This document shows positions 10,921 through 20,392 of a stretch of 20,392 nucleotides of DNA, one piece after another. Position 1 is the first letter of the stretch. Every line of letters starts with the position of its first letter. Source of the stretch: a virus; the IMG/VR virus record IMGVR_UViG_3300050013_000090, positions 1-20,392 of that record; one strand, given 5' to 3'. Position numbers and translations under genes: made by a program. A model generated the notes under the pieces. The model made no database searches. It was not told the DNA's origin and saw only the letters and a list, made by a program, of their open reading frames with translations.

Positions 10921-11474
10921 CGGTGGCTGTGAAGGTGAATGGCTGGGCAGACGAGGAGGTGGCCCCACTCGTCGTGGCGCTCAACGGGCTGGCGGAGGTC
11001 GTAAGCCTGGACAGCTGCCAAGACTCCCGAGATATAGGGGGCGCATACGTCATGTTCGTGTCGGGTGACGCGGAGCTGCCTACGGCACGCTTAGTCGAGC
11101 GTTTGGCGATCGATCTGGCCAAACGCCTGAGGGATGTACCTTATCGGCTCCGGCTGGAATGGTTTGCCGGAGGTGACGACCCCGTTGGCTACCTGGTCTC
11201 GCCGCCTGAATTCATCGGGACGCTAGTTCGGGTTGTTGGCGAGGTGGCTACCGCCTGGAATACCGTCCGCGAGGCTCTGGCCACGAGTGGGTATACTCGA
11301 ACTGTGAGTGGAACTGTGGCAGACGCCCTAGAGAGGGTTCGCAATTCTCGGAACGGCATGGGTCACCGCGATGTGCCAGCCGTGGAGCCCGAGAGGCTGC
11401 GCGATGCGCGCGAGAAGATTCAACGCGCCCAGGAGCGGCTTCGGGAACTGACCATTATGCTTGAGGAGATGTAG
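10908..11474 (+). CDS. Hypothetical protein with SLDSCQ..AYVMF motif and repeat-derived C terminus
   Basis: This 188-residue protein starts at ATG 10908 (MAHLAVAVKVNGWADEEVAP), 13 bp inside the PIN stub. Residues 25-115 (VVSLDSCQDSRDIGGAYVMF, then RLRLEWFAGGDDPVGYLVSP) match a conserved bacterial/phage hypothetical family with SLDSC and AYV.F motifs. After residue 115 comes WNTVREALAT from the 31-bp repeat, then a helical tail (ERLRDAREKIQRAQERLREL) after an internal GTG at 11304 that has its own TATACT box. So this ORF may be two units joined in frame: a DSC domain and a 56-residue coiled-coil protein. Function unknown. Confidence 0.72.
   Translation: MAHLAVAVKVNGWADEEVAPLVVALNGLAEVVSLDSCQDSRDIGGAYVMFVSGDAELPTARLVERLAIDLAKRLRDVPYRLRLEWFAGGDDPVGYLVSPPEFIGTLVRVVGEVATAWNTVREALATSGYTRTVSGTVADALERVRNSRNGMGHRDVPAVEPERLRDAREKIQRAQERLRELTIMLEEM
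11254..11284 (+). repeat. 31-bp exact direct repeat, copy 2
   Basis: Second copy of 10450-10480; see that entry for frame and spacing. It ends 8 bp before the TATACT box at 11292. Confidence 0.95.
11292..11297 (+). promoter_or_regulatory. -10 box TATACT, 6 nt before an in-frame internal GTG (11304)
   Basis: TATACT followed by six bases and GTG 11304 would give a leaderless 56-residue product MSGTVADALERVRNSRNGMG and onward to LTIMLEEM. The TG lies one base further up than in a classical extended -10. Confidence 0.4.
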
Positions 11475-11541
11475 AAAGTCAAGCCCTGAGATGTAACGAC
11501 TTCGTCAACCCAAGGCGCACGGAAGCGGTTAAGATGAGAAG

Positions 11542-11610
11542 CGGCCCCGGCAGGAGTCGAACCTGCGCACCCTGGCTACGAGACCTGGCGCTCAATCCCT
11601 GAGCGGGGCC
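11542..11610 (-). tRNA. tRNA-like gene, probably Thr (CGT), with reduced D-arm region
   Basis: On the minus strand 11610 to 11542 folds with a 7-bp acceptor stem (GGCCCCG/CGGGGCC), discriminator G, and a canonical T arm (GCAGG-TTCGACT-CCTGC). The anticodon arm reads GGTCTCGTAGCC, most like tRNA-Thr with anticodon CGT (loop CTCGTAG). Two features are abnormal: bases 8-9 appear to be absent because the D stem (CTCA/TGAG, 5-nt loop) abuts the acceptor stem, and the anticodon stem CCAGG/CCAGG has a central A-A mismatch. No CCA is encoded (the base after the discriminator is C, then T). It could be a decayed or unusual phage tRNA. A CTC(Glu) reading is less likely. Confidence 0.7.
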
Positions 11611-11693
11611 AAGAGGAAGTGACCTGGGAACCGAAGCGTTGCAAGCGCTCCGGCTCTCAGGCTCGCGGGTTAGGCGAGGAGACAATAGAACCC

Positions 11694-11990
11694 ATGAACC
11701 AGAACGCTCTCGGGCCTCTTGGACAACCTCGTCTGACGTCGACAGGGGTACCGCCTTCCCAGGGGGCCGCGACGCTGCCACCCGCGTCGATACCGTCAAG
11801 GAGCAGCGGCCCAGTTCAGCGCGCGATCCAGATCCCTCTTGGTACCGCCTGGGCGACCTTACAGGCACCGTTCCCCCTCACTCAGGAAACGTGGGACTTG
11901 ATGCTGACGGTGCTGGAGGCCATGAAGCCCGGGCTCATCCAGCGGGATGTCGCCCCTGCCCCGCCCACCGAGCCGCCGCCGCTTTCTTGA
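11694..11990 (+). CDS. Conserved bacterial-type hypothetical protein, first gene of a retropepsin cluster
   Basis: The 98-residue protein starts MNQNALGPLGQPRLTSTGVP; the AGGAG at 11676 is 13 nt upstream, a long spacing. The N terminus is Pro/Ser-rich. Residues 57-87 (PLGTAWATLQAPFPLTQETW, then DLMLTVLEAMKPGL) follow the 'lp.PLTe.eWd.ml.vL.aMKPgLv' pattern of small bacterial hypotheticals. It ends TGATG, overlapping the next gene by one base. The composition and neighbours are bacterial rather than typical of this phage's small genes, so host-derived cargo is likely. The start codon is not certain. Confidence 0.68.
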   Translation: MNQNALGPLGQPRLTSTGVPPSQGAATLPPASIPSRSSGPVQRAIQIPLGTAWATLQAPFPLTQETWDLMLTVLEAMKPGLIQRDVAPAPPTEPPPLS

Positions 11991-12238
11991 TGGTTTTGGA
12001 AAAAGAGCTTGCCTACTTCGAGGCCCATAAGAGCGATCTACTCTCCAAATATCAGGGCCAGTTCGCGCTGATTTATGGCGATGAGCTGCTTGGGACGTAC
12101 ACGCGCTTCGAGGAGGCTTTCGAGGCAGGGGTGGCGCGGCTGGGCAACGAGTCGTTCCTAGTGCAGCCGATCGTCGAGAACGCAGGGCAAGTTCAGTTCC
12201 CTGCCCTCGCCGTTGGGTTGCTTCGTGCCCATCCATAA
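11990..12238 (+). CDS. Conserved bacterial protein (LEKELAYFEAHKSDLL family), partner of a retropepsin-like gene
   Basis: The 82-residue protein (MVLEKELAYFEAHKSDLLSK, then GQFALIYGDELLGTYTRFEE, AFEAGVARLGNESFLVQPIV) matches a widespread bacterial family I know as 'LEKELxTYExhxxxLLaxxGkFVLIxGdexvGtydtyeDAlxAGyxrFGlepFLVkqI'. That gene commonly precedes an aspartyl-protease-like ORF, as here. The start is the ATG of the TGATG overlap with the upstream gene. The C terminus (NAGQVQFPALAVGLLRAHP) is a few residues longer than usual. The role in bacteria is unknown to me; conserved pairing suggests a shared function with the downstream gene. Confidence 0.8.
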   Translation: MVLEKELAYFEAHKSDLLSKYQGQFALIYGDELLGTYTRFEEAFEAGVARLGNESFLVQPIVENAGQVQFPALAVGLLRAHP

Positions 12239-12452
12239 CCAGTTCATCGCACCAGGCCCGGGCCAGCCACCCAATTCGCAGGCTCTTCTGGAGGTGGGCG
12301 CCTGCGTGGTCGCCGAAGTTCATGTTCCGCCCCAGATCGCCGAGGTTCTAGAAAAGGAAGGAAGTCCCGTCCCGGCGTCGCAAAGCGGCTTCAGTTCGGG
12401 TTGGACTTGCGACGGCAGCTCGCTTGACGAGCCGTGCCCGTGCCTGGCATAA
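12225..12452 (+). pseudogene. Retropepsin-like aspartyl protease remnant, broken at the DTG active site
   Basis: GTG 12225 (overlapping the previous gene by 14 bp) reads VPIHNQFIAPGPGQPPNSQA and then VGACVVAEVHVPPQIAEVLE, SPVPASQSGF. This is the N-terminal strand region of the small bacterial retropepsin-like family, in which 'GP.l.v.i.vP..la..l.a.G.pvPaP..G.ALiDTGAs' is expected. At that point the frame reads SSGWTCDGSSLDEPCPCLA and stops. LD (ttg gac) and GSSLDEP are visible but in different frames, so the catalytic Asp-Thr-Gly is lost by small indels. The remaining 100 or so residues of the protease are absent. Confidence 0.6.
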
Positions 12453-12453
12453 T
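12424..12453 (+). promoter_or_regulatory. Sigma70-type promoter TTGACG-N18-CATAAT
   Basis: TTGACG (12424-12429), an 18-bp spacer, and CATAAT (12448-12453) preceded by TGG (extended -10). Transcription would begin near 12460 and serve the small genes at 12504 and 12559. AAGGAG follows at 12463. Confidence 0.55.
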
Positions 12454-12503
12454 GGGGTACTAAGGAGAGTGACCCTCCGGCTGCGAATTGGTGGCCAGAA
12501 CAG

Positions 12504-12569
12504 ATGGGCAAGTGTCGGGTCTGCGGTGGCGACCTACTAGATCCAGACAAGGATCACGATGGCCGATAA
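12504..12569 (+). CDS. Possible 21-residue CxxC peptide
   Basis: ATG 12504 encodes MGKCRVCGGDLLDPDKDHDG R and stops 11 bp inside the next gene. One zinc knuckle (CRVCGG) resembles CHECGG in the next gene, as if it were a truncated relative or a leader peptide. Confidence 0.4.
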   Translation: MGKCRVCGGDLLDPDKDHDGR

Positions 12570-12744
12570 CGAGCCCGGCGTCGGAGACTGGCGCGGTGAG
12601 TGTCACGAGTGTGGTGGCGAACTACATGGCACGAGTTCGGTGGTCTGCGATCGGTGCGCGCATGGGCATGATCTAGACAGACATAGACGAGAGACCCAGG
12701 TGGCAAGGAGACAGAGACACACGGGTAGAGGCGAGAGCCACTAG
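12559..12744 (+). CDS. 61-residue zinc-ribbon phage protein
   Basis: The protein starts MADNEPGVGDWRGECHECGG and continues to TSSVVCDRCAHGHDLDRH, with two CxxC pairs (C15/C18 and C30/C33) forming a zinc ribbon. After residue 40 the sequence becomes Arg/Gln-rich (RRETQVARRQRHTGRGESH), which looks unlike a folded tail. The +1 frame stays open for 79 codons from 12677, suggesting that the true C terminus may lie in that frame. It follows the promoter at 12424. Function unknown. Confidence 0.65.
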   Translation: MADNEPGVGDWRGECHECGGELHGTSSVVCDRCAHGHDLDRHRRETQVARRQRHTGRGESH

Positions 12745-12913
12745 GGCACTGGGCGAGAGATCGGATAGGGCGGAGGCGATCGCGGATCGGGACGAGATAA
12801 GACAGAGACGAGATCCGGGCGACGAGAAAGTCTGGCTGGCTGCCAAGGACTCGCCACCCATTAGACGCATACCGGGTGGGGATACTCCAGGGAGATGGGT
12901 CCTCACTCATAGA
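12677..12913 (+). other. Open frame without a start, possible frameshifted extension of the zinc-ribbon gene
   Basis: From 12677 to the TAG at 12911-12913 one frame is open for 78 codons with charged, protein-like sequence (RVEARATRALGERSDRAEAI, ADRDEIRQRRDPGDEKVWLA, AKDSPPIRRIPGGDTPGRW). It has no ATG, GTG or TTG start and is closed upstream by TAG 12674-12676. It overlaps the tail of the 12559 gene in the +1 frame. Many AGA codons argue for caution. Confidence 0.3.
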
Positions 12914-12922
12914 TTATGAGTC
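12906..12922. repeat. Perfect 7-bp inverted repeat ACTCATA-GAT-TATGAGT
   Basis: ACTCATA (12906-12912), loop GAT, TATGAGT (12916-12922). It is AT-rich, so it is a better candidate for an operator or regulator site than for a strong terminator. No T-tract follows. Confidence 0.6.
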
Positions 12923-12935
12923 TCTGCGCATAAAG

Positions 12936-12961
12936 TAACTCACGGGCACAGGTAACTCACA
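12936..12961 (+). repeat. Direct repeat GTAACTCAC, 17-bp period
   Basis: Copies at 12936-12944 and 12953-12961. They lie between the two palindromes and may be protein-binding half sites. Confidence 0.5.
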
Positions 12962-12985
12962 GCGATTGAGATCAACCCGGCTGGC

Positions 12986-13003
12986 GATAAGAACTCTTAT
13001 CGT
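12986..13003. repeat. Perfect 7-bp inverted repeat CGATAAG-AACT-CTTATCG
   Basis: CGATAAG (12986-12992), loop AACT, CTTATCG (12997-13003). It could form an operator palindrome or a hairpin. No downstream U-rich tract is seen. Confidence 0.6.
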
Positions 13004-13287
13004 GAACTCCAGAGGCTGTCTCGGGCCTCGCCGATGGCTGGTTCGGCCAAAGTTACCTAATCGATCTCGTCGTATCCGTCCTTACCGCTCCGAAATTTAC
13101 AGCTCCAAAAACTCGCCTTTAGGCCCGATTCGCAATAAGCCACTCTGACAAAAAGTATATCCCCGGCAATCCCGGCACTCGTGAGATCAAGTGCGCTGGA
13201 TAGCGGAGCAGCCAGTTGCACTCTTGAGGCACCTTCCCCAACAGCCGTTAGATTAGGTCGTCGTCTACTCGGAGGTGGTCTGCAAGC

Positions 13288-14958
13288 ATGAGTGGTGGCA
13301 CCTCCGTACTTGCGGACCTACTTGATCCCCCTGCGAAGCGGATCTATCGCACACCGGGAGCGTTGGCGAAGGCGCTGAACCCGAAGACGAGGCAGACACC
13401 CGCGCTGGACCTGATTGACGCGGAGTTGGTAGGGGTCGCGGAAGGGCGGTGTGAGCGGCTGATCATTTGCATGCCTCCTCAGGAGGGCAAGAGCACCCGG
13501 ATAAGTCGATACGGGATCCTGTGGATGCTGTACCGGAACCCCAATCTCCGGGTGGTGCTGATCTCGTATGGGGAAGAGATGGCGCGGCACTTCAGCCGAC
13601 AGATCCGGGGTGACATCACCACCTTTGACGGGACCGAAGGTTTGACGGATCTGGGCCTGCGGATTCAGGCCGACAGCCGAGCGGTGGGGAACTGGCGTTT
13701 GGCGCTACCGGCCCAGGGCGGTCTTTACGCGATTGGTCTGTACGGCTCGATCACGGGCAAGCCGGTAGACCTGTTGGTGATTGACGATCCAGTCAAGGAC
13801 TTCCGGGCAGCGGATTCAGAACTGCTGTCTGAGCAGGCATGGCAGACGTGGATGGCCGTTGCCCGACCAAGGCTGGCGCCCAACGCTCCGGTAGTTGTGG
13901 TGCTGACCCGGTGGCATGAGCAGGACTTGGCGGGGAGGCTCTTGGCCAAGCAGGCAGAGGATGAGGCGGCTGGGGTTGAGAATCACGACCGCTGGAAGGT
14001 GATCAACATTCCCGCCCGGGCTGACCATGACATTGAGAAGGGTGAGGCCGACATCCTGGGGCGCAAGGCCGGGGAGTTCATGATCTCGGTCCGTGGGCGG
14101 ACGCGAGAGCAATGGGAAGCGACCAAGGCCGCGACGGCTCCGAGGATCTGGACTTCTCTCTACCAGGGCCGGCCGAGTCCGGAAGCGGGGGACGTCTTCC
14201 AGAGAACGTGGTGGAAGCGGTACGACATCCCGCCGTGGACCAGGGAAGGCACCTCGTGCCTTGTTCCCGACGGCGAGCTGGTCCAGTCGTGGGACATGAC
14301 TTTCAAAGACACGTCTTCGAGTGACTACGTTGTTGGGCAAGTCTGGCTCCGCCGGGGGGCAGATGCCTTTCTGGTGGATCAAGTCAGGGCGCGGATGACC
14401 TTCACCGAGACCATCACGGCCTTGCAGTCGCTGACTGCAAAGTGGCCGCAGACCACTGCCAAGTTGGTTGAGGACAAGGCCAACGGCCCGGCGGTGATCG
14501 ATAGCCTGAAGAAGGAGATCGGCGGGCTGATCCCGGTCAACCCCGGCAAGGACTCCAAGACGGGCCGAGCCCGAGCGGTGAGTCCCTTCGTGGAGTCGGG
14601 TAACGTCCACCTTCCCACCGAACGGGTTGCCCTGTTCAATGTCGAGTCGCTGATCGAGGAGTGCGCCTCATTCCCCAACGGCGCTCACGATGACCAGGTG
14701 GACGCGTTGAGCCAGGCGTTGAAGAGGCTCCTGTTGCACGCAGTCAGTGCCCAGGCGGAGGCGTTCCACCAGTTGGCCCTGGAGAGACTCGCCCAGACGC
14801 CGTTGGAGGTTGTCCAAGAGGCCCGAGAGGCCCGAGAGCGTCTGGCGCGACCAAGGGCCTTGGTGCGGTGTCCGTCACCCCAGAATTTGAACAAGCACCT
14901 CTACCGGGGTGATGTCTGTGCCTTATGTGGGCAGGTGCGGGAGGCGGTGAGTGTCTGA
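13288..14958 (+). CDS. terL: Terminase large subunit (TerL)
   Basis: This 556-residue protein is the ATP-driven DNA-packaging motor and headful/cos nuclease. Walker A-like CMPPQEGKST (about 61-70, with GKST), Walker B DLLVIDDP (D166-D167), and motif ALPAQGGLYAIGLYGSITGK are typical of the ATPase. The C-terminal RNase H-like nuclease shows SWDMTFKDTSSSDY (D336), LVEDKANG (about 394-401) and HDDQVDALSQAL (D468/D469). It ends with an extra CxxC-type tail (VRCPSPQNLNKHLYRGDVCA, LCGQ) that may bind zinc. The ATG at 13288 has GGAGG about 12 nt upstream. No small terminase was recognised immediately before it. A short Zn ORF overlaps its stop. Confidence 0.95.
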   Translation: MSGGTSVLADLLDPPAKRIYRTPGALAKALNPKTRQTPALDLIDAELVGVAEGRCERLIICMPPQEGKSTRISRYGILWMLYRNPNLRVVLISYGEEMARHFSRQIRGDITTFDGTEGLTDLGLRIQADSRAVGNWRLALPAQGGLYAIGLYGSITGKPVDLLVIDDPVKDFRAADSELLSEQAWQTWMAVARPRLAPNAPVVVVLTRWHEQDLAGRLLAKQAEDEAAGVENHDRWKVINIPARADHDIEKGEADILGRKAGEFMISVRGRTREQWEATKAATAPRIWTSLYQGRPSPEAGDVFQRTWWKRYDIPPWTREGTSCLVPDGELVQSWDMTFKDTSSSDYVVGQVWLRRGADAFLVDQVRARMTFTETITALQSLTAKWPQTTAKLVEDKANGPAVIDSLKKEIGGLIPVNPGKDSKTGRARAVSPFVESGNVHLPTERVALFNVESLIEECASFPNGAHDDQVDALSQALKRLLLHAVSAQAEAFHQLALERLAQTPLEVVQEAREARERLARPRALVRCPSPQNLNKHLYRGDVCALCGQVREAVSV

Positions 14959-15456: not shown

Positions 15457-18138
15457 GTGAGAATCGGCTCATTTGAGTTTGGCCGGGTCCGCAAGGATGC
15501 CCTGCCCCTAGTCACCCAGGGTGCTATGCCCGACCCCACCACCGAGCAGTCGATGGCCGCTCAGGGCCTCGGCCCGGTCATGCCGTTCTCCCCCGGAAGA
15601 CCCATCAACCCCTACCTGGCCCTCGGGACGGCCCCACGCGCCTACGATTTCCGAACCGGGCGCAACATAAATGTCCGTCCACGGTCGGATCGGTCCTCGT
15701 TTGACCTGCTGGCGGGGCTGACGTACAACTGGCCCGTGGCGGCCATGTGCATCGCACACCGGATCAACAGCTATAAGAGCTTCACGTGGTCGGTCGTCCC
15801 GATGCCCGGGGAGACCGGGAACAATGACCTCTTGATCCAAGAGGCGACGAAGATCATGCAGCGGCCGGATGGCAAGCATTCCTACATGTGGGTCATCTCG
15901 CAATACCTGGAAGACCTGTTCCGGTATGATGCCGCATGTCTCTACCGAAGGCGGGACGAGCTGGGCCGCGTGATCGGACTCAATGTGGTCTCTGGCCTGA
16001 CGATTGCGCCGATGCTGGACTTCTACGGCCGCATCCCCGACGCCCCCGCGCCGGCGTACATCCAGTACGCGAACGGGCTTCCCTTTGAGTGGTTCACCGA
16101 AGACGACATCGTCTACGAGCCGTTGAATCCCCAGCCGGATTCAGCATACGGCAAGGCCCCCATCGAGAACGTGATGATGGCCGCGAACACCGACATCCGC
16201 ATGGGGCTGAGTCTGCTGGACTACTTCACCGAGGGCTCGATTCCCGGTGGCATTGTCAACGCCTCGGCGAGCATCACGGACCCTGCGGCCCTTCGGGAGC
16301 GCGAGGCCGACTGGGATGCAGACCTCGAAGGCGACCAGGCCAAGAAACAGCGAGCCAAGTGGCTGATGGCCGACGAGAAGTTCACCGCCATCGACAAGAA
16401 GCCGTTTGACGAGAACGCATTTTTATGGAACTTCCGCATTGGCTGCGCCGCCTTTGGAGTAGTGCCTCAGGATTTGGGCATAACCCTGGATGTGAACCGC
16501 GCGACTAGCGATACGCAGATAGATATTCAAGAGAGAATTTCTGATCGTCCGCTCGGATTGCACCTGGACGGGATCTTCACCCGCTATTTACAGGACGATA
16601 GGGGATACCCCGTCGAGTTTCACACTAGTCTTGCCGCAGTGAAGGAAGACAGGTTGACCGAGGCCAACGCTTGGAAGGTCTACGTTGACGAGGGCGTCGC
16701 CTCTGTTAGCGAGATGCGCCAGGCGCTCTTGGGATTGCCCGAGGATGACGAACGTCCCGTCCCGCGGTTCATCATGACTGCGCGGGGCGGGCCGATCCCG
16801 ATCGCGAATCTCATGGCCATCGCGGGGCCGGTGAACCCCGACACGATGATGCCCGCGGAAGAGATCCCGCTATTGGACACTCGGGACAAGCCCCTCGAGG
16901 CTGCGGCCGGTTTACTTCCCGGCAAGACCATGAACACCCCCGGCGCGCTTGTGAGCACCTTCAACCCCGACGAGCCCGAGTTCCCGCAGGACGAGAACGC
17001 CGTTCCCCCCGCACCGACTACGATCGCTGCGGTCGCTAAGGCCGAGACTGCGGGGATCACCACGGAGACTGGTCTAGAGGGTGTGGACCTTCAGGGCCGG
17101 GATGAGGACGAGGAAGAGGAAGCCGAGGTCGCCAAGGAACTCTCCCGCTGGCGGGACAACGCCCGAGGCCGTGTGAAGCTCGGTAAGGCCCCCCGGCAGT
17201 TCGCGAGCACCATCCTACCCGTTCCGCTGTGGACGGCCGTCTGGAAGACACTGGAGCCCGCCAGGACCAGGAATCAGGTAGACCAAGCGTTCGAGGTGGC
17301 CAAGGCACAAGGCCCAAAAGCCCCTAGGCGCCTTCTGGATCAAATCGCGGCGCATTACGCACCGCTGATCCAGGCGGCGCTCCCGAAGGCCTTAGGTGGT
17401 CTGGACGACGCGATTCGGGCCTATGCACAAACCCAATCAGTTGTCAAGGCGCTACAGGCCGACCCGGCTGCGAGGCAGGCGGCGCGTGTCGCCCTGGCTG
17501 CTGCGGTCGTGGTCGATCCGTCCGCGCTCAAGACCGTGTTGCAGAACTTGGCCGCCGATGCTTACCTGGCCGGGACGCACACCGCTGCGTCAACCGGTCA
17601 GGTGCTCACCGCCTTCGGGAAGATTGACACCGCAATCGACTGGGACGCCTGGACCCCCGGTTCGGCTGCCGCCGCGCAAGCACTGAACGACCCGGGGTTG
17701 AATGCAGTCCTCGATGCGGCGGACCAGACGATCTCTGGACTGACCAGTAACACCATCGACCAGATCGGCACGGTGCTTGCAGATGGGATCTCCCAAGGGA
17801 CTTCAGTCGATGCCCTGGGGGTGCAGATCCGGGACTTCGTTGGAGGTGACGCCGACCGGGCGTTCATGATCGCCAACACCGAGACCTGCCGGGCGATGTC
17901 TCAAGCCTCGATGAACACCTACACCCAGAACGGGATCACCGGGGTCACTTGGTCGGGCGAAGACGATGCCTGCGACATCTGCCAGGCCAACATAGACGCC
18001 GGGATTATCGCCACGGGCGACGACTTTCCCTCTGGCGATTCTGAGCCGCCTGCCCACCCGAACGACAGGTGCAGCGTCAGCCCCGCCGACTTGCCAACCG
18101 AAACCAGCCAGCCGGATCAGTCCGGAGACGAGGAGTAG
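15457..18138 (+). CDS. Portal protein with C-terminal MuF-like domain
   Basis: At 893 residues the protein is a portal-MuF fusion. The N-terminal ~450 residues follow the HK97-type portal pattern (WPVAAMCIAHRINSYKSFTW, YLEDLFRYDAACLYRRRDEL, DDIVYEPLNPQPDSAYGKAP, and VDEGVASVSEMRQALLGLPE). Residues about 520-570 are an acidic linker (GRDEDEEEEAEVAKE). The C terminus has a MuF/head-morphogenesis signature: ADRAFMIANTETCRAMSQAS, then TWSGEDDACDICQANIDAGI, DDFPSGDSEPPAHPNDRCS, with C839/C842 and the closing HPNDRC. The portal is the vertex ring for DNA entry; MuF domains associate with it during capsid assembly. GTG 15457 follows GGAG with 8-nt spacing. Confidence 0.93.
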   Translation: MRIGSFEFGRVRKDALPLVTQGAMPDPTTEQSMAAQGLGPVMPFSPGRPINPYLALGTAPRAYDFRTGRNINVRPRSDRSSFDLLAGLTYNWPVAAMCIAHRINSYKSFTWSVVPMPGETGNNDLLIQEATKIMQRPDGKHSYMWVISQYLEDLFRYDAACLYRRRDELGRVIGLNVVSGLTIAPMLDFYGRIPDAPAPAYIQYANGLPFEWFTEDDIVYEPLNPQPDSAYGKAPIENVMMAANTDIRMGLSLLDYFTEGSIPGGIVNASASITDPAALREREADWDADLEGDQAKKQRAKWLMADEKFTAIDKKPFDENAFLWNFRIGCAAFGVVPQDLGITLDVNRATSDTQIDIQERISDRPLGLHLDGIFTRYLQDDRGYPVEFHTSLAAVKEDRLTEANAWKVYVDEGVASVSEMRQALLGLPEDDERPVPRFIMTARGGPIPIANLMAIAGPVNPDTMMPAEEIPLLDTRDKPLEAAAGLLPGKTMNTPGALVSTFNPDEPEFPQDENAVPPAPTTIAAVAKAETAGITTETGLEGVDLQGRDEDEEEEAEVAKELSRWRDNARGRVKLGKAPRQFASTILPVPLWTAVWKTLEPARTRNQVDQAFEVAKAQGPKAPRRLLDQIAAHYAPLIQAALPKALGGLDDAIRAYAQTQSVVKALQADPAARQAARVALAAAVVVDPSALKTVLQNLAADAYLAGTHTAASTGQVLTAFGKIDTAIDWDAWTPGSAAAAQALNDPGLNAVLDAADQTISGLTSNTIDQIGTVLADGISQGTSVDALGVQIRDFVGGDADRAFMIANTETCRAMSQASMNTYTQNGITGVTWSGEDDACDICQANIDAGIIATGDDFPSGDSEPPAHPNDRCSVSPADLPTETSQPDQSGDEE

Positions 18139-18141
18139 CAC

Positions 18142-18336
18142 ATGGCAGACGTAGCGGCCAAGGTTGCCAAGATGACCGAGATGCGTATCGGGGTCACCCG
18201 CTGCGGCTGTGGCGAGCCCACCTCGCACGCTAACACCCCATGCCCGCAGGGCGTGTCCGATCCCTCCGGGACGCGCGTCCTGCGCTCCTACCGCAACCCA
18301 CTCAGGCAGCTCGCCTGGAACCTCACAGGGAGATAA
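18142..18336 (+). CDS. 64-residue Cys-containing protein
   Basis: The ATG is preceded by GAGGAG (7-nt spacing), just after the portal stop. The product (MADVAAKVAKMTEMRIGVTR, CGCGEPTSHANTPCPQGVSD, then a basic tail LRSYRNPLRQLAWNLTGR) has CxC and a further Cys at about 34, so it could be zinc-binding. Its 3' end overlaps the end of the minus-strand endonuclease gene by 14 bp. Probably co-transcribed with the portal. Function unknown. Confidence 0.65.
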   Translation: MADVAAKVAKMTEMRIGVTRCGCGEPTSHANTPCPQGVSDPSGTRVLRSYRNPLRQLAWNLTGR

Positions 18337-19009
18337 GTTTCTTCGGGTTCTTCCGCCGCCAGACCATGCAGGCTCGGCAGTACCGGTAGTTGGGCTGAGA
18401 TGGCCTTCTGTAGGTGTTCTCAGGGGTGAACTCGTGACCTCGCTTACAGTGGGTCTTGGACGCCTGCCAGATGCCTTGCCGACCTGGCCGCGGGGCGCCG
18501 AGAACCGGGTGGGGGAATCGGGCGATAGCCTCAATGGCCTTGGCCCGTTTGGACTCCAACTTCATGTAGGGCACCATCGCCTCTAGCAGGGCGATGACGT
18601 CGTATCGACGGAAGAGGGTCCAGGTCCAGCAGTCACGACGCGGCTGGAGACCGCCGGCCTTGGTACTACGCCGATCGCGATAGACGCTGCCTCCGAACTG
18701 AGCAACCCAGTCGATGACCTCTTTGTCGGTCATTCCGATGCGGAGTTGGGTGTGGGACGGCCCAACGACAGAGATACTCCCCTCCCCATCAAACAGCCCC
18801 GCCAAGTAAGCCAGGTCCGTGGGCTCCGTTGGAACGCGATAGGAACTGGCCCACAACTCAGACGGTTTCCAGTCCGGGAACCGGCGATGAAGGGCACCGT
18901 AGAGAGCCTCTCCGTTGCGTCCGAGTTCTGCCGCGATGTGGCGGACTTTTTCGCCCGCCAGCACCCGACCCATTACCGCGTCGAGATCGTGACCTAGAGA
19001 TTTTACCAT
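18323..19009 (-). CDS. Free-standing LAGLIDADG homing endonuclease
   Basis: Minus-strand ATG 19009 gives a 228-residue protein beginning MVKSLGHDLDAVMGRVLAGE. An upstream ATG adding 27 residues would read through the promoter region and is rejected. Residues 10-47 are an HTH-like segment (GEKVRHIAAELGRNGEALYG). Residues 66-79 are the single LAGLIDADG motif (LAYLAGLFDGEGSI). Residues about 90-175 form the endonuclease core. The C terminus (CKRGHEFTPENTYRRPSQPN, then YRYCRACMVWRRKN) is a CxxC zinc-type DNA-binding module common in mobile endonucleases. It would cut specific DNA to copy itself into empty alleles. It is inserted against the transcription of the virion genes. Confidence 0.88.
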   Translation of the reverse strand: MVKSLGHDLDAVMGRVLAGEKVRHIAAELGRNGEALYGALHRRFPDWKPSELWASSYRVPTEPTDLAYLAGLFDGEGSISVVGPSHTQLRIGMTDKEVIDWVAQFGGSVYRDRRSTKAGGLQPRRDCWTWTLFRRYDVIALLEAMVPYMKLESKRAKAIEAIARFPHPVLGAPRPGRQGIWQASKTHCKRGHEFTPENTYRRPSQPNYRYCRACMVWRRKNPKKLISL

Positions 19010-19015
19010 AGCTAC

Positions 19016-19024
19016 AGTATAGCA
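19016..19024 (-). promoter_or_regulatory. Extended -10 promoter TGC-TATACT for a leaderless endonuclease mRNA
   Basis: On the minus strand TGC-TATACT ends 6 nt before the endonuclease ATG. The divergent gene at 19043 starts 33 bp from that ATG, with AGGAG at 19029-19033, so the two genes share one short intergenic region. Confidence 0.65.
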
Positions 19025-19042
19025 CACCAGGAGTATAGAGCA

Positions 19043-19435
19043 ATGGCTACCGTACTGACTTCCGCGGGCAAGGGGCTGACGACGGCTCACCTGACAAACA
19101 CTGGAACCCCCGTGGCGCCCCAGTACGTCGCCATCGGCTCTGGGGCCACGGGTGCCGTGGTCGCCGACACCGCCCTAACGACCGAATACACCACCGGCAC
19201 GTGGACGGGCTACGCGCGCGTATCCAGCACGATGACCCAGCAGACCGTCACCGCGACCAACGACACCGCTCAGTTCGTGGCCACCTGGACCGCCCCGGGG
19301 ACGGAGACCGTTGCCGAGGCTGGCAACTTCACGGCCTCGACCTCGGGTACGATCTTCGTGCACGGCAACTTCACCGGGGTGGCGCTCAGTTCGGGCGATT
19401 CGCTCCAGGTTACGATCACCTGTCAGTTCACCTGA
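19043..19435 (+). CDS. Putative phage virion protein (beta-rich, TGYARVSSTMT type)
   Basis: This 130-residue protein starts MATVLTSAGKGLTTAHLTNT with AGGAG 9 nt upstream. It is Thr/Ala-rich and beta-strand-like: PVAPQYVAIGSGATGAVVAD, TGYARVSSTMTQQTVTATND, EAGNFTASTSGTIFVHGNFT. The pattern 'kYvaiGtGtga....tAL.tE......vtg......t.....T.......aG.fd.st.G.lf....F...L.sGDslq.t' is one I recognise from virion/tail-associated proteins of many environmental phages. It is likely a decoration, tail or fibre-base component; the exact location is unknown. A beta-propeller gene follows. Confidence 0.7.
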   Translation: MATVLTSAGKGLTTAHLTNTGTPVAPQYVAIGSGATGAVVADTALTTEYTTGTWTGYARVSSTMTQQTVTATNDTAQFVATWTAPGTETVAEAGNFTASTSGTIFVHGNFTGVALSSGDSLQVTITCQFT

Positions 19436-19493
19436 GTTCGGTGTTGGCGGGAGGTCAGCCGGTGGCTGAGCAATTCGACGTGGTGACCTTCTG

Positions 19494-20392
19494 ATGCCCA
19501 CCTTCCCTTACGCCTACACGGCGAACTACGGCGCCAGCACGGTCACGAAGATCAACCTCTCCACGTTCGCGACAGTGGGTAGCGCGCTTGCGGTGGGCAG
19601 CTACCCCTACTCCATCGCCGTCGATCCGGCTGGGACCTTCGCCTACGTCGCGAACTACAACAGCAGCACGGTCACGAAGATCAACCTCTCCACCTTCCTG
19701 ACGGTGGGTAGCGCCCTTGCGGTGGGGAGCGACCCCATCTCCATCGCCATCGATCCGGCTGGGACCTTCGCCTACGTCGCGAACTACAGCGACTCCACGG
19801 TCACGAAGATCAACCTGAGCACGTTCGCGACAGTGGGGAGCGCACTGGCAGTGGGGGGTTACCCCATCTCCATCGCCATCGATCCGGCTGGGACCTTCGC
19901 CTACGTCGCGAACGCTGGCGACTCCACGGTCACGAAGATCAACCTCTCCACCTTCCTGACGGTGGGTAGCGCGCTTGCGGTGGGGAAAAGCCCCCAATCC
20001 ATCGCCGTCGATCCAGCTGGGACCTTCGCCTACGTCGCGAACTACAGCGCCTCCACGGTCACGAAGATCAACCTCTCCACCTTCCTGACGGTGGGTAGCG
20101 CACTGGCGGTGGGGAGCGACCCCTACGCCATCGCCATCGATCCGGCTGGGACCTTCGCCTACGTCGCGAACGCTGGCGACTCCACGGTCACGAAGATCAA
20201 CCTGAGCACGTTCCTGACAGTGGGCTCTGCGCTGGCGGTGGGAAGCGTCCCCCAATCCATCGCCGTCGATCCGGCTGGGACCTTCGCCTACGTCGCGAAC
20301 GCTGGCGACTCCACGGTCACGAAGATCAACCTGAGCACGTTCCTGACAGTGGGCTCTGCGCTGGCGGTGGGGAGCGACCCCCAATCCATCGC
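19494..20392 (+). CDS. YVTN-type beta-propeller repeat protein (3' end outside window)
   Basis: Plus-strand ATG 19494 (TGATG) opens a frame with no stop to the window end (at least 299 codons). It is built from 43-residue units: AYVANYNSSTVTKINLSTFL, then VGSALAVGSDPISIAIDPAG TF. This is the YVTN family beta-propeller repeat (YVaN....tVtvIdtst..v...i.vg..P..ia..pdGt). Each unit is one four-stranded blade; seven blades make a propeller, and six complete units plus part of a seventh are seen. It comes straight after a virion protein gene, so a fibre or receptor/glycan-binding role is likely, though a lactonase-like relative is possible. The protein must be longer than shown. Confidence 0.9.
   Translation, partial: MPTFPYAYTANYGASTVTKINLSTFATVGSALAVGSYPYSIAVDPAGTFAYVANYNSSTVTKINLSTFLTVGSALAVGSDPISIAIDPAGTFAYVANYSDSTVTKINLSTFATVGSALAVGGYPISIAIDPAGTFAYVANAGDSTVTKINLSTFLTVGSALAVGKSPQSIAVDPAGTFAYVANYSASTVTKINLSTFLTVGSALAVGSDPYAIAIDPAGTFAYVANAGDSTVTKINLSTFLTVGSALAVGSVPQSIAVDPAGTFAYVANAGDSTVTKINLSTFLTVGSALAVGSDPQSI
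19512..20392 (+). repeat. 129-bp tandem repeats encoding propeller blades
   Basis: Repeat starts at 19512, 19641, 19770, 19899, 20028, 20157 and 20286 (last cut by the window end). Backbone codons are nearly identical; variation clusters at two short loops: the residues after VAN, and SxPxS before IAxDPAG. Confidence 0.96.

Follow-up and report, generated by a model that had tools for sequence, protein, structure and literature searches.

A seven-bladed YVTN-type beta-propeller with loop-confined variation, encoded in an exchangeable cassette of a phage head/collar locus

The propeller gene and its surroundings

The window, by which we mean the whole stretch of 20,392 nucleotides analysed here, ends within a reading frame that encodes a repetitive beta-propeller (Table 1; related contigs carry L numbers). 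The original prediction took this gene to be adjacent to tail genes. We instead find the window copy in a head/collar module, together with the genes for the terminase, a portal-MuF fusion and a collar-fibre-like protein, and it is other copies, on related contigs, that lie at the tail tip. Because the window is the entire IMG/VR fragment and the frame stays open to its last base, the 3' end of the gene is simply missing. The nearest relatives of the terminase, at roughly 50% identity, belong to Arthrobacter, Brevibacterium and Microcystis phages, and the portal gene, used as a guide to related propeller contigs, had no match among the first seven relatives. Immediately upstream of the propeller, a possible short cistron has a stop codon that overlaps the propeller start; the same TGATG overlap occurs in L002, L003, L005, L006 and L007, and from this arrangement the two frames may be translationally coupled.

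Table 1. Features of the window discussed in the text, in order of position.
Feature	Position	Strand	Remarks
Terminase large subunit	13288..14958	+	
Portal protein fused to Mu F-like head morphogenesis domain	15457..18138	+	
Small conserved ORF	18142..18336	+	upstream of collar-like gene; DNA 87% identical to L002/L005
LAGLIDADG/HNH homing endonuclease gene	18323-19090	-	inside head module; overlaps start of collar-like gene
130-aa collar-fibre-like protein (phrog_5417)	19043..19435	+	
Cassette breakpoint	19437..19438	.	2 bp past stop codon of 130-aa gene
Possible 10-codon leader cistron (GTG...TGA)	19462..19494	+	stop overlaps propeller start (TGATG)
Seven-bladed YVTN/lactonase-like beta-propeller ORF	19494..20392	+	ATG start; 299 aa visible, 3' end beyond record
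Blade 1, strands b-d	19494..19607	+	from alignment with L002/L003 and AF2 DSSP strands
Blades 2-7, six complete 129-bp units	19608..20381	+	starts 19608, 19737, 19866, 19995, 20124, 20253
Exact tract in common with L004 tail-tip propeller	20051..20252	+	202 nt
Start of closing strand (QSIA...)	20382..20392	+	cut by contig end

Seven blades closed by a C-terminal strand

The reading frame consists of seven YVTN/lactonase-like blades of 43 aa (129 bp) each, and Tandem Repeats Finder (TRF) run over 19506-20392 returns a period of 129 with 6.9 copies and zero indels. The blades had been described from the sequence as near-identical 129-bp units; the period stands, and 'near-identical' is slightly generous, with amino acid identities among the six complete blades of 83.7-93.0% (mean 87.4%) and nucleotide identities of 81-95%. 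That mean lies well inside the class of highly repetitive propellers, which is defined by blade identities above 60% (PMC9218822). The Pfam match of the frame, Lactonase (PF10282, E=4.2e-19, above cut-off), combined with the tandem array of 7 x 43 aa, places the protein in the YVTN/lactonase-like group.

The missing end can be read from relatives. The protein of L002, 95% identical to that of the window, is complete at 333 aa and ends in ...SIAIGPIPYLPAGGAPTGIPPSYVINQAALIRASVF, after which come a stop codon, an AGGAGA that resembles a ribosome-binding site and a further ATG. In relatives whose 3' ends are intact, the seven blades seen in the window are followed by a closing strand that reads ...SIAIGPIPY, and the count of seven is found again in the window, in L002 and in L003 and L008, which were assembled separately. 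If the window gene ends as that of L002 does, it would lack no more than the closing strand and a brief tail. AlphaFold2, run on the L002 protein together with four relatives, gives a seven-bladed propeller with pLDDT 88.5 (about 95 across the blades) and pTM 0.85. In this model, three N-terminal strands and one C-terminal strand (residues 296-301) complete blade 1, so that its strand a is supplied by the C-terminus, a velcro closure of a seven-fold toroid; the window itself is cut within this closing strand.

The best Foldseek match of the L002 model is 1L0Q (E 4.2e-27, TM 0.85, rmsd 1.3 A), which is also the nearest solved relative by sequence (34% identity). 1L0Q is likewise a seven-bladed YVTN propeller and is extracellular; unlike the window protein, it is an archaeal cell-surface layer protein with a PKD domain and not the product of a phage gene. 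Several other Foldseek matches are putative lactonases and the best Pfam family carries that name, so one might read the gene as an enzyme of the lactonase/6-phosphogluconolactonase kind. We regard this as most unlikely, since near-identical, near-symmetric blades with hypervariable loops fit poorly with one conserved asymmetric active site and since 1L0Q, the closest protein of solved structure, belongs to a surface layer. An N-terminal signal, which had been named in advance as a mark of an enzyme unrelated to the particle, was also looked for: reading of the sequence reveals no signal peptide on the phage protein.

Amino acid variation lies on one face of the propeller

Among the six complete blades of the window, amino acids vary in repeat columns 1, 2, 5, 17, 18, 19, 31, 41 and 42. 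We define the BC loop as columns 17-20 and the DA loop as columns 41, 42, 1 and 2. Variable columns make up 7 of the 8 columns in these loops and 2 of the 35 elsewhere (Fisher p=8.5e-6, for loop columns that were picked after viewing the data and the original remark on two variable loops). That remark, that variability is confined to two loop positions, was essentially right, although synonymous change is distributed over the remainder of the blade. In a scan of all 1,505 placements of two blocks, the observed placement is the maximum, and none of 20,000 random sets of eight columns reached the pN of the loop columns. The ratio pN/pS is 2.05 (window), 2.69 (L002) and 3.74 (L003) in the loops against 0.26, 0.23 and 0.49 outside them, with the proviso that pN/pS taken across paralogous blades may be inflated by shuffling of pre-existing variants. 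When blades at matching positions in the window and L002 are compared, the loops hold 19.8 nonsynonymous to 2.2 synonymous changes and the remainder 5 to 8.

By DSSP assignment on the L002 model, the variable positions fall at residues 55-58, in the BC loop, and at residues 36-40, in the DA loop that enters strand a. In the antiparallel four-stranded meander of a propeller blade, the DA and BC loops emerge on the same face. Therefore, one side of the disc holds nearly all of the amino acid variation.

How might such variation arise? A diversity-generating retroelement (DGR) that mutates the loops is the least likely of the explanations we weighed. Many variable codons do have the form NNC, as would come from AAC template codons, and position 42 uses nine codons that all end in C; against this, third positions are 77-87% G/C anyway, and the variation is spread over seven blades and not one terminal repeat. 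Furthermore, we found no DGR reverse transcriptase (RVT_1) in 13 related records, all of them fragments, and a search for a template repeat in the window and in the 47.7-kb L003 record was negative. With both components missing from the fragments searched, we disfavour this mechanism.

A probable fibre-type cassette in the head/collar locus

Two other records, L035 and L036, share 99.9% identity with the window along stretches of 4.0 and 6.4 kb, and in both the identity ends at position 19437. Beyond this point they carry an unrelated gene pair encoding 381 and 627 aa, so that the propeller gene sits on one side of a sharp breakpoint as an exchangeable module on a conserved backbone, a pattern expected of a receptor-binding or fibre protein. 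The 627-aa protein differs in its N-terminal domain and carries at its C-terminus a stalk built from 20-residue repeats (RARvvaLAaSSASVaaI); in L003 and L008, it is the propeller that is fused to a C-terminal stalk of the same kind. In L041-L044, the same 130-aa gene precedes yet other heads and stalks with 18-20-residue periodicity. Stalks with 18-20-residue repeats (RARxxxLAxxSASVAxI and similar) define a family of long fibre stalks seen in L003 (6900-8462), in the 627-aa gene of L058 and in L041-L044. No relatives of the stalk proteins were found among cultured phages, and Pfam and PHROG gave no match for the 627-aa protein of L058.

The 130-aa protein that anchors the cassette is weakly classified as of the collar-fibre type. 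In the annotated complete genome MW202796.1, its homologue bears the label 'tail collar fiber protein', and after it come a repeat protein of the stalk type and several genes for tail fibres. For the Gp80 family (podophage GP4 fiber I, PF23140), with a cut-off of 27 bits, L041 reaches 27.0 bits and L044 27.6, and the window's 130-aa protein has no match. A profile comparison between the 130-aa and the 117-aa Gp80-like neighbour proteins was not significant, a PDB search with the 130-aa profile returned chance matches only, and the AlphaFold2 model was poor (pLDDT 43.5) and was left out of the fold search. The likeness to GP4 fiber I Gp80 and to the neck fibre of phage A-1(L) is that of a small adaptor-like protein beside fibre genes, the difference from Gp80 being that the window protein falls below the family cut-off. 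In A-1(L), gp80-gp82 form multi-component fibres with a distal carbohydrate-binding module and no propeller is mentioned; that module did not bind the host (PMC10966104).

On the window's sister contig, L058, a protease gene and predicted capsid genes follow the cassette. Taken as a whole, the gene context supports a collar or neck fibre position. Between its predicted capsid and connector genes, L058 also has a group of genes that look glycosyltransferase-like and epimerase-like by sequence alone (11267-14655 on the reverse complement), a possible glycan modification island.

A gene lying in a head module could also have a decoration or assembly role: the propeller might be a structural head/collar decoration or spacer that docks virion proteins or stabilises the neck, with loops that track its partners and not host receptors. 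The window copy does sit between portal and predicted capsid genes, and phage SU10 has a nozzle whose core is made of seven-bladed propellers (PMC9509320). We nevertheless judge this reading unlikely. Near-identical sister phages dispense with the propeller and have unrelated genes in its place, in other phages it is absent or sits at other loci, a pN/pS above 2 on one face is not expected of docking domains, and in SU10 the propeller is a built-in part of the nozzle and no exchangeable module.

Propellers at the tail tip and exchange of blades

Copies of the propeller are sited among structural and fibre genes at more than one place, in the head/collar region (window, L002, L003) and at the tail tip (L004, L006, L007, L057). 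In L006, L007 and L057, the same propeller (MPTFPYAY...) follows the tape measure gene, a Gp80-family protein (PF23140, E=2e-12) and a 313-aa gene, and in L057 hub-like and lysin-like genes lie downstream of it. In L004 and L056, the propeller is embedded in a tail-tip protein. The DNA upstream of these last two copies is 99.3-99.5% identical to L058 over 4.0-5.8 kb, and therefore head-locus and tail-locus propellers, although recorded on separate contigs, belong to one phage group. A strongly diverged propeller-like protein of 327 aa also occurs in L069 (4506-5489), where it immediately follows sequence akin to the final part of the 313-aa gene, suggesting from its placement that propellers may recur at this tail-tip site.

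The arrays of the window and L004 share a 202-nt exact tract (Table 1), and blade 6 of the window is identical to blade 4 of L004. As the two arrays are otherwise about 82-87% identical, an exact run of this length is not expected at some 15% divergence unless exchange was recent. L004 and L056 themselves differ in blade order and yet have exact tracts of 189 and 127 nt in common. Blade shuffling, which the original prediction put forward as a way to change binding surfaces, thus gains support as far as the exchange of blades is concerned.

A different possibility is that the gene is accessory (moron-like) and acts outside the virion, for instance as a binding protein, secreted or intracellular, that hampers the host or competing phages. 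The bacterial relatives inspected (26-47% identity, best segment) mostly resemble secreted or lipoprotein-type surface propellers, and repetitive propellers of Nostoc have been linked to prokaryotic innate immunity (PMC9218822). The phage protein lacks a signal peptide, though, and both its fusion to a fibre-type stalk in L003/L008 and its insertion in a tail-tip protein in L004/L056 speak against such a role, which we consider quite improbable.

Repeat arrays and assembly

The evidence comes from short metagenomic fragments, in which arrays of 129-bp repeats are prone to assembly error, and it is natural to ask whether blade arrangement, blade number or junctions are artefacts. Most contigs break within the blade array. 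The array of L057 has five blades, which we do not accept as a true change in blade number, assembly collapse being possible. In L005 (5664-7085), a head-locus propeller of 2.5 blades runs into a C-terminus of tail-fibre type and then hub-like genes, across a junction that skips the major tail and tape measure genes; we did not count it as evidence for a genuine propeller-tail fusion, since it looks like a repeat-mediated misassembly or misjoin, or a deletion. We judge artefact a very unlikely explanation overall. Seven blades are found in contigs assembled separately, the propeller-tail fusion is the same in L004 and L056, and the exact identity with L002 ahead of the 19437 breakpoint extends for only some 14 nt, which is shorter than the usual assembly k-mers and argues against a k-mer misjoin.

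Comparison with known propellers and fibres

Propellers with highly repetitive blades arise continuously in every lineage, and a few viral examples have been reported (Pereira & Lupas, PMC9218822; PMC6805158). They resemble the window protein in having blades more than 60-80% identical and in their continuing amplification; in the window, by comparison, the amino acid differences fall on one face and whole blades are common to two loci of a phage group. YVTN/NHL/lactonase propellers also occur in phage proteins of the BFVD database (e.g., A0A6J5SZJ1, A0A8S5THG8, A0A6J5R6I7, A0A0N7GFD2), from uncultured Caudovirales and some cultured phages, with the same fold at about 11-31% identity among the matches listed. 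The siting of the gene among virion genes is consistent with the suggestion of a virion component, but its fold is not a new type, since phage proteins were already known to have it. A search of cultured phages for relatives of the propeller gave only one unannotated faecal record at 29% identity.

Propellers have also been described in the tail fibre of RcGTA (PMC7296036) and in eCIS fibres (PMC12923769). There, a propeller of foot or lectin type is part of a fibre of phage origin, as is proposed here, in some cases with a repeat shaft; by their descriptions these are different propeller families, and the portions available report no pattern of blade shuffling. With the terms used, our literature search turned up no paper that links YVTN propellers to the binding of receptors by phages. 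Already known are the fold, the recent amplification of blades and the mosaicism of receptor-binding proteins. What is different here is diversification restricted to one face, a cassette swap on an otherwise identical backbone and the sharing of blades between two structural loci.

A proposed exchangeable binding head

We favour the reading, with a probability of roughly 0.6, that the propeller serves as an exchangeable and fast-diversifying head that faces the host and binds receptors or glycans, mounted on a collar or neck fibre in the phage of the window and on tail-tip fibres in relatives. The protein would then be carried on the virion and attached to a fibre, with the strands acting as a rigid scaffold kept by purifying selection and the binding surface made up, on one face, of the BC and DA loops from each of the seven blades. 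Specificity could change along two routes: by swapping a whole-gene cassette downstream of the conserved 130-aa collar-like gene, and by blade-level recombination among near-identical 129-bp units, which would include exchange with the second propeller at the tail tip. A more ambitious version, which we offer tentatively and would not bet on, is a combinatorial adhesin in which libraries of near-identical blades, differing chiefly at their surface loops, in the collar and tail-tip propellers recombine into new faces without a reverse transcriptase, alongside the swapping of fibre-head genes.

On balance, the original prediction is partly supported. Its supported parts are the propeller of repeated blades, the variation confined to loops, the signs of blade exchange, the lack of an N-terminal signal peptide and a siting consistent with a virion gene.

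If the favoured reading is true, the locus would provide a natural repeat-scaffold binder in which the framework is held by purifying selection while the loops of one face change, and new specificities would come from blade exchange and cassette swapping and not from DGR mutagenesis. It would be a natural counterpart of engineered repeat-protein binders, and would offer a small, defined and probably well-folding set of sequences for testing how phages alter binding.

Other repeat genes in the window

Two further repeat-bearing genes lie at the opposite end of the window. The reading frame at 2017-2634 contains 33-bp tandem repeats encoding AYDAAHREERR-type units and has no Pfam match. The gene at 1-1543 combines WAAAGDDVWAAA-type repeats with 57-bp tandem repeats (RLEGRVLTDTDKACATRRV) and has Imm5-like Pfam matches; it occurs twice, in near-identical copies (484 nt at 99.6%), and a related copy is found in L005 at 13550-14153.
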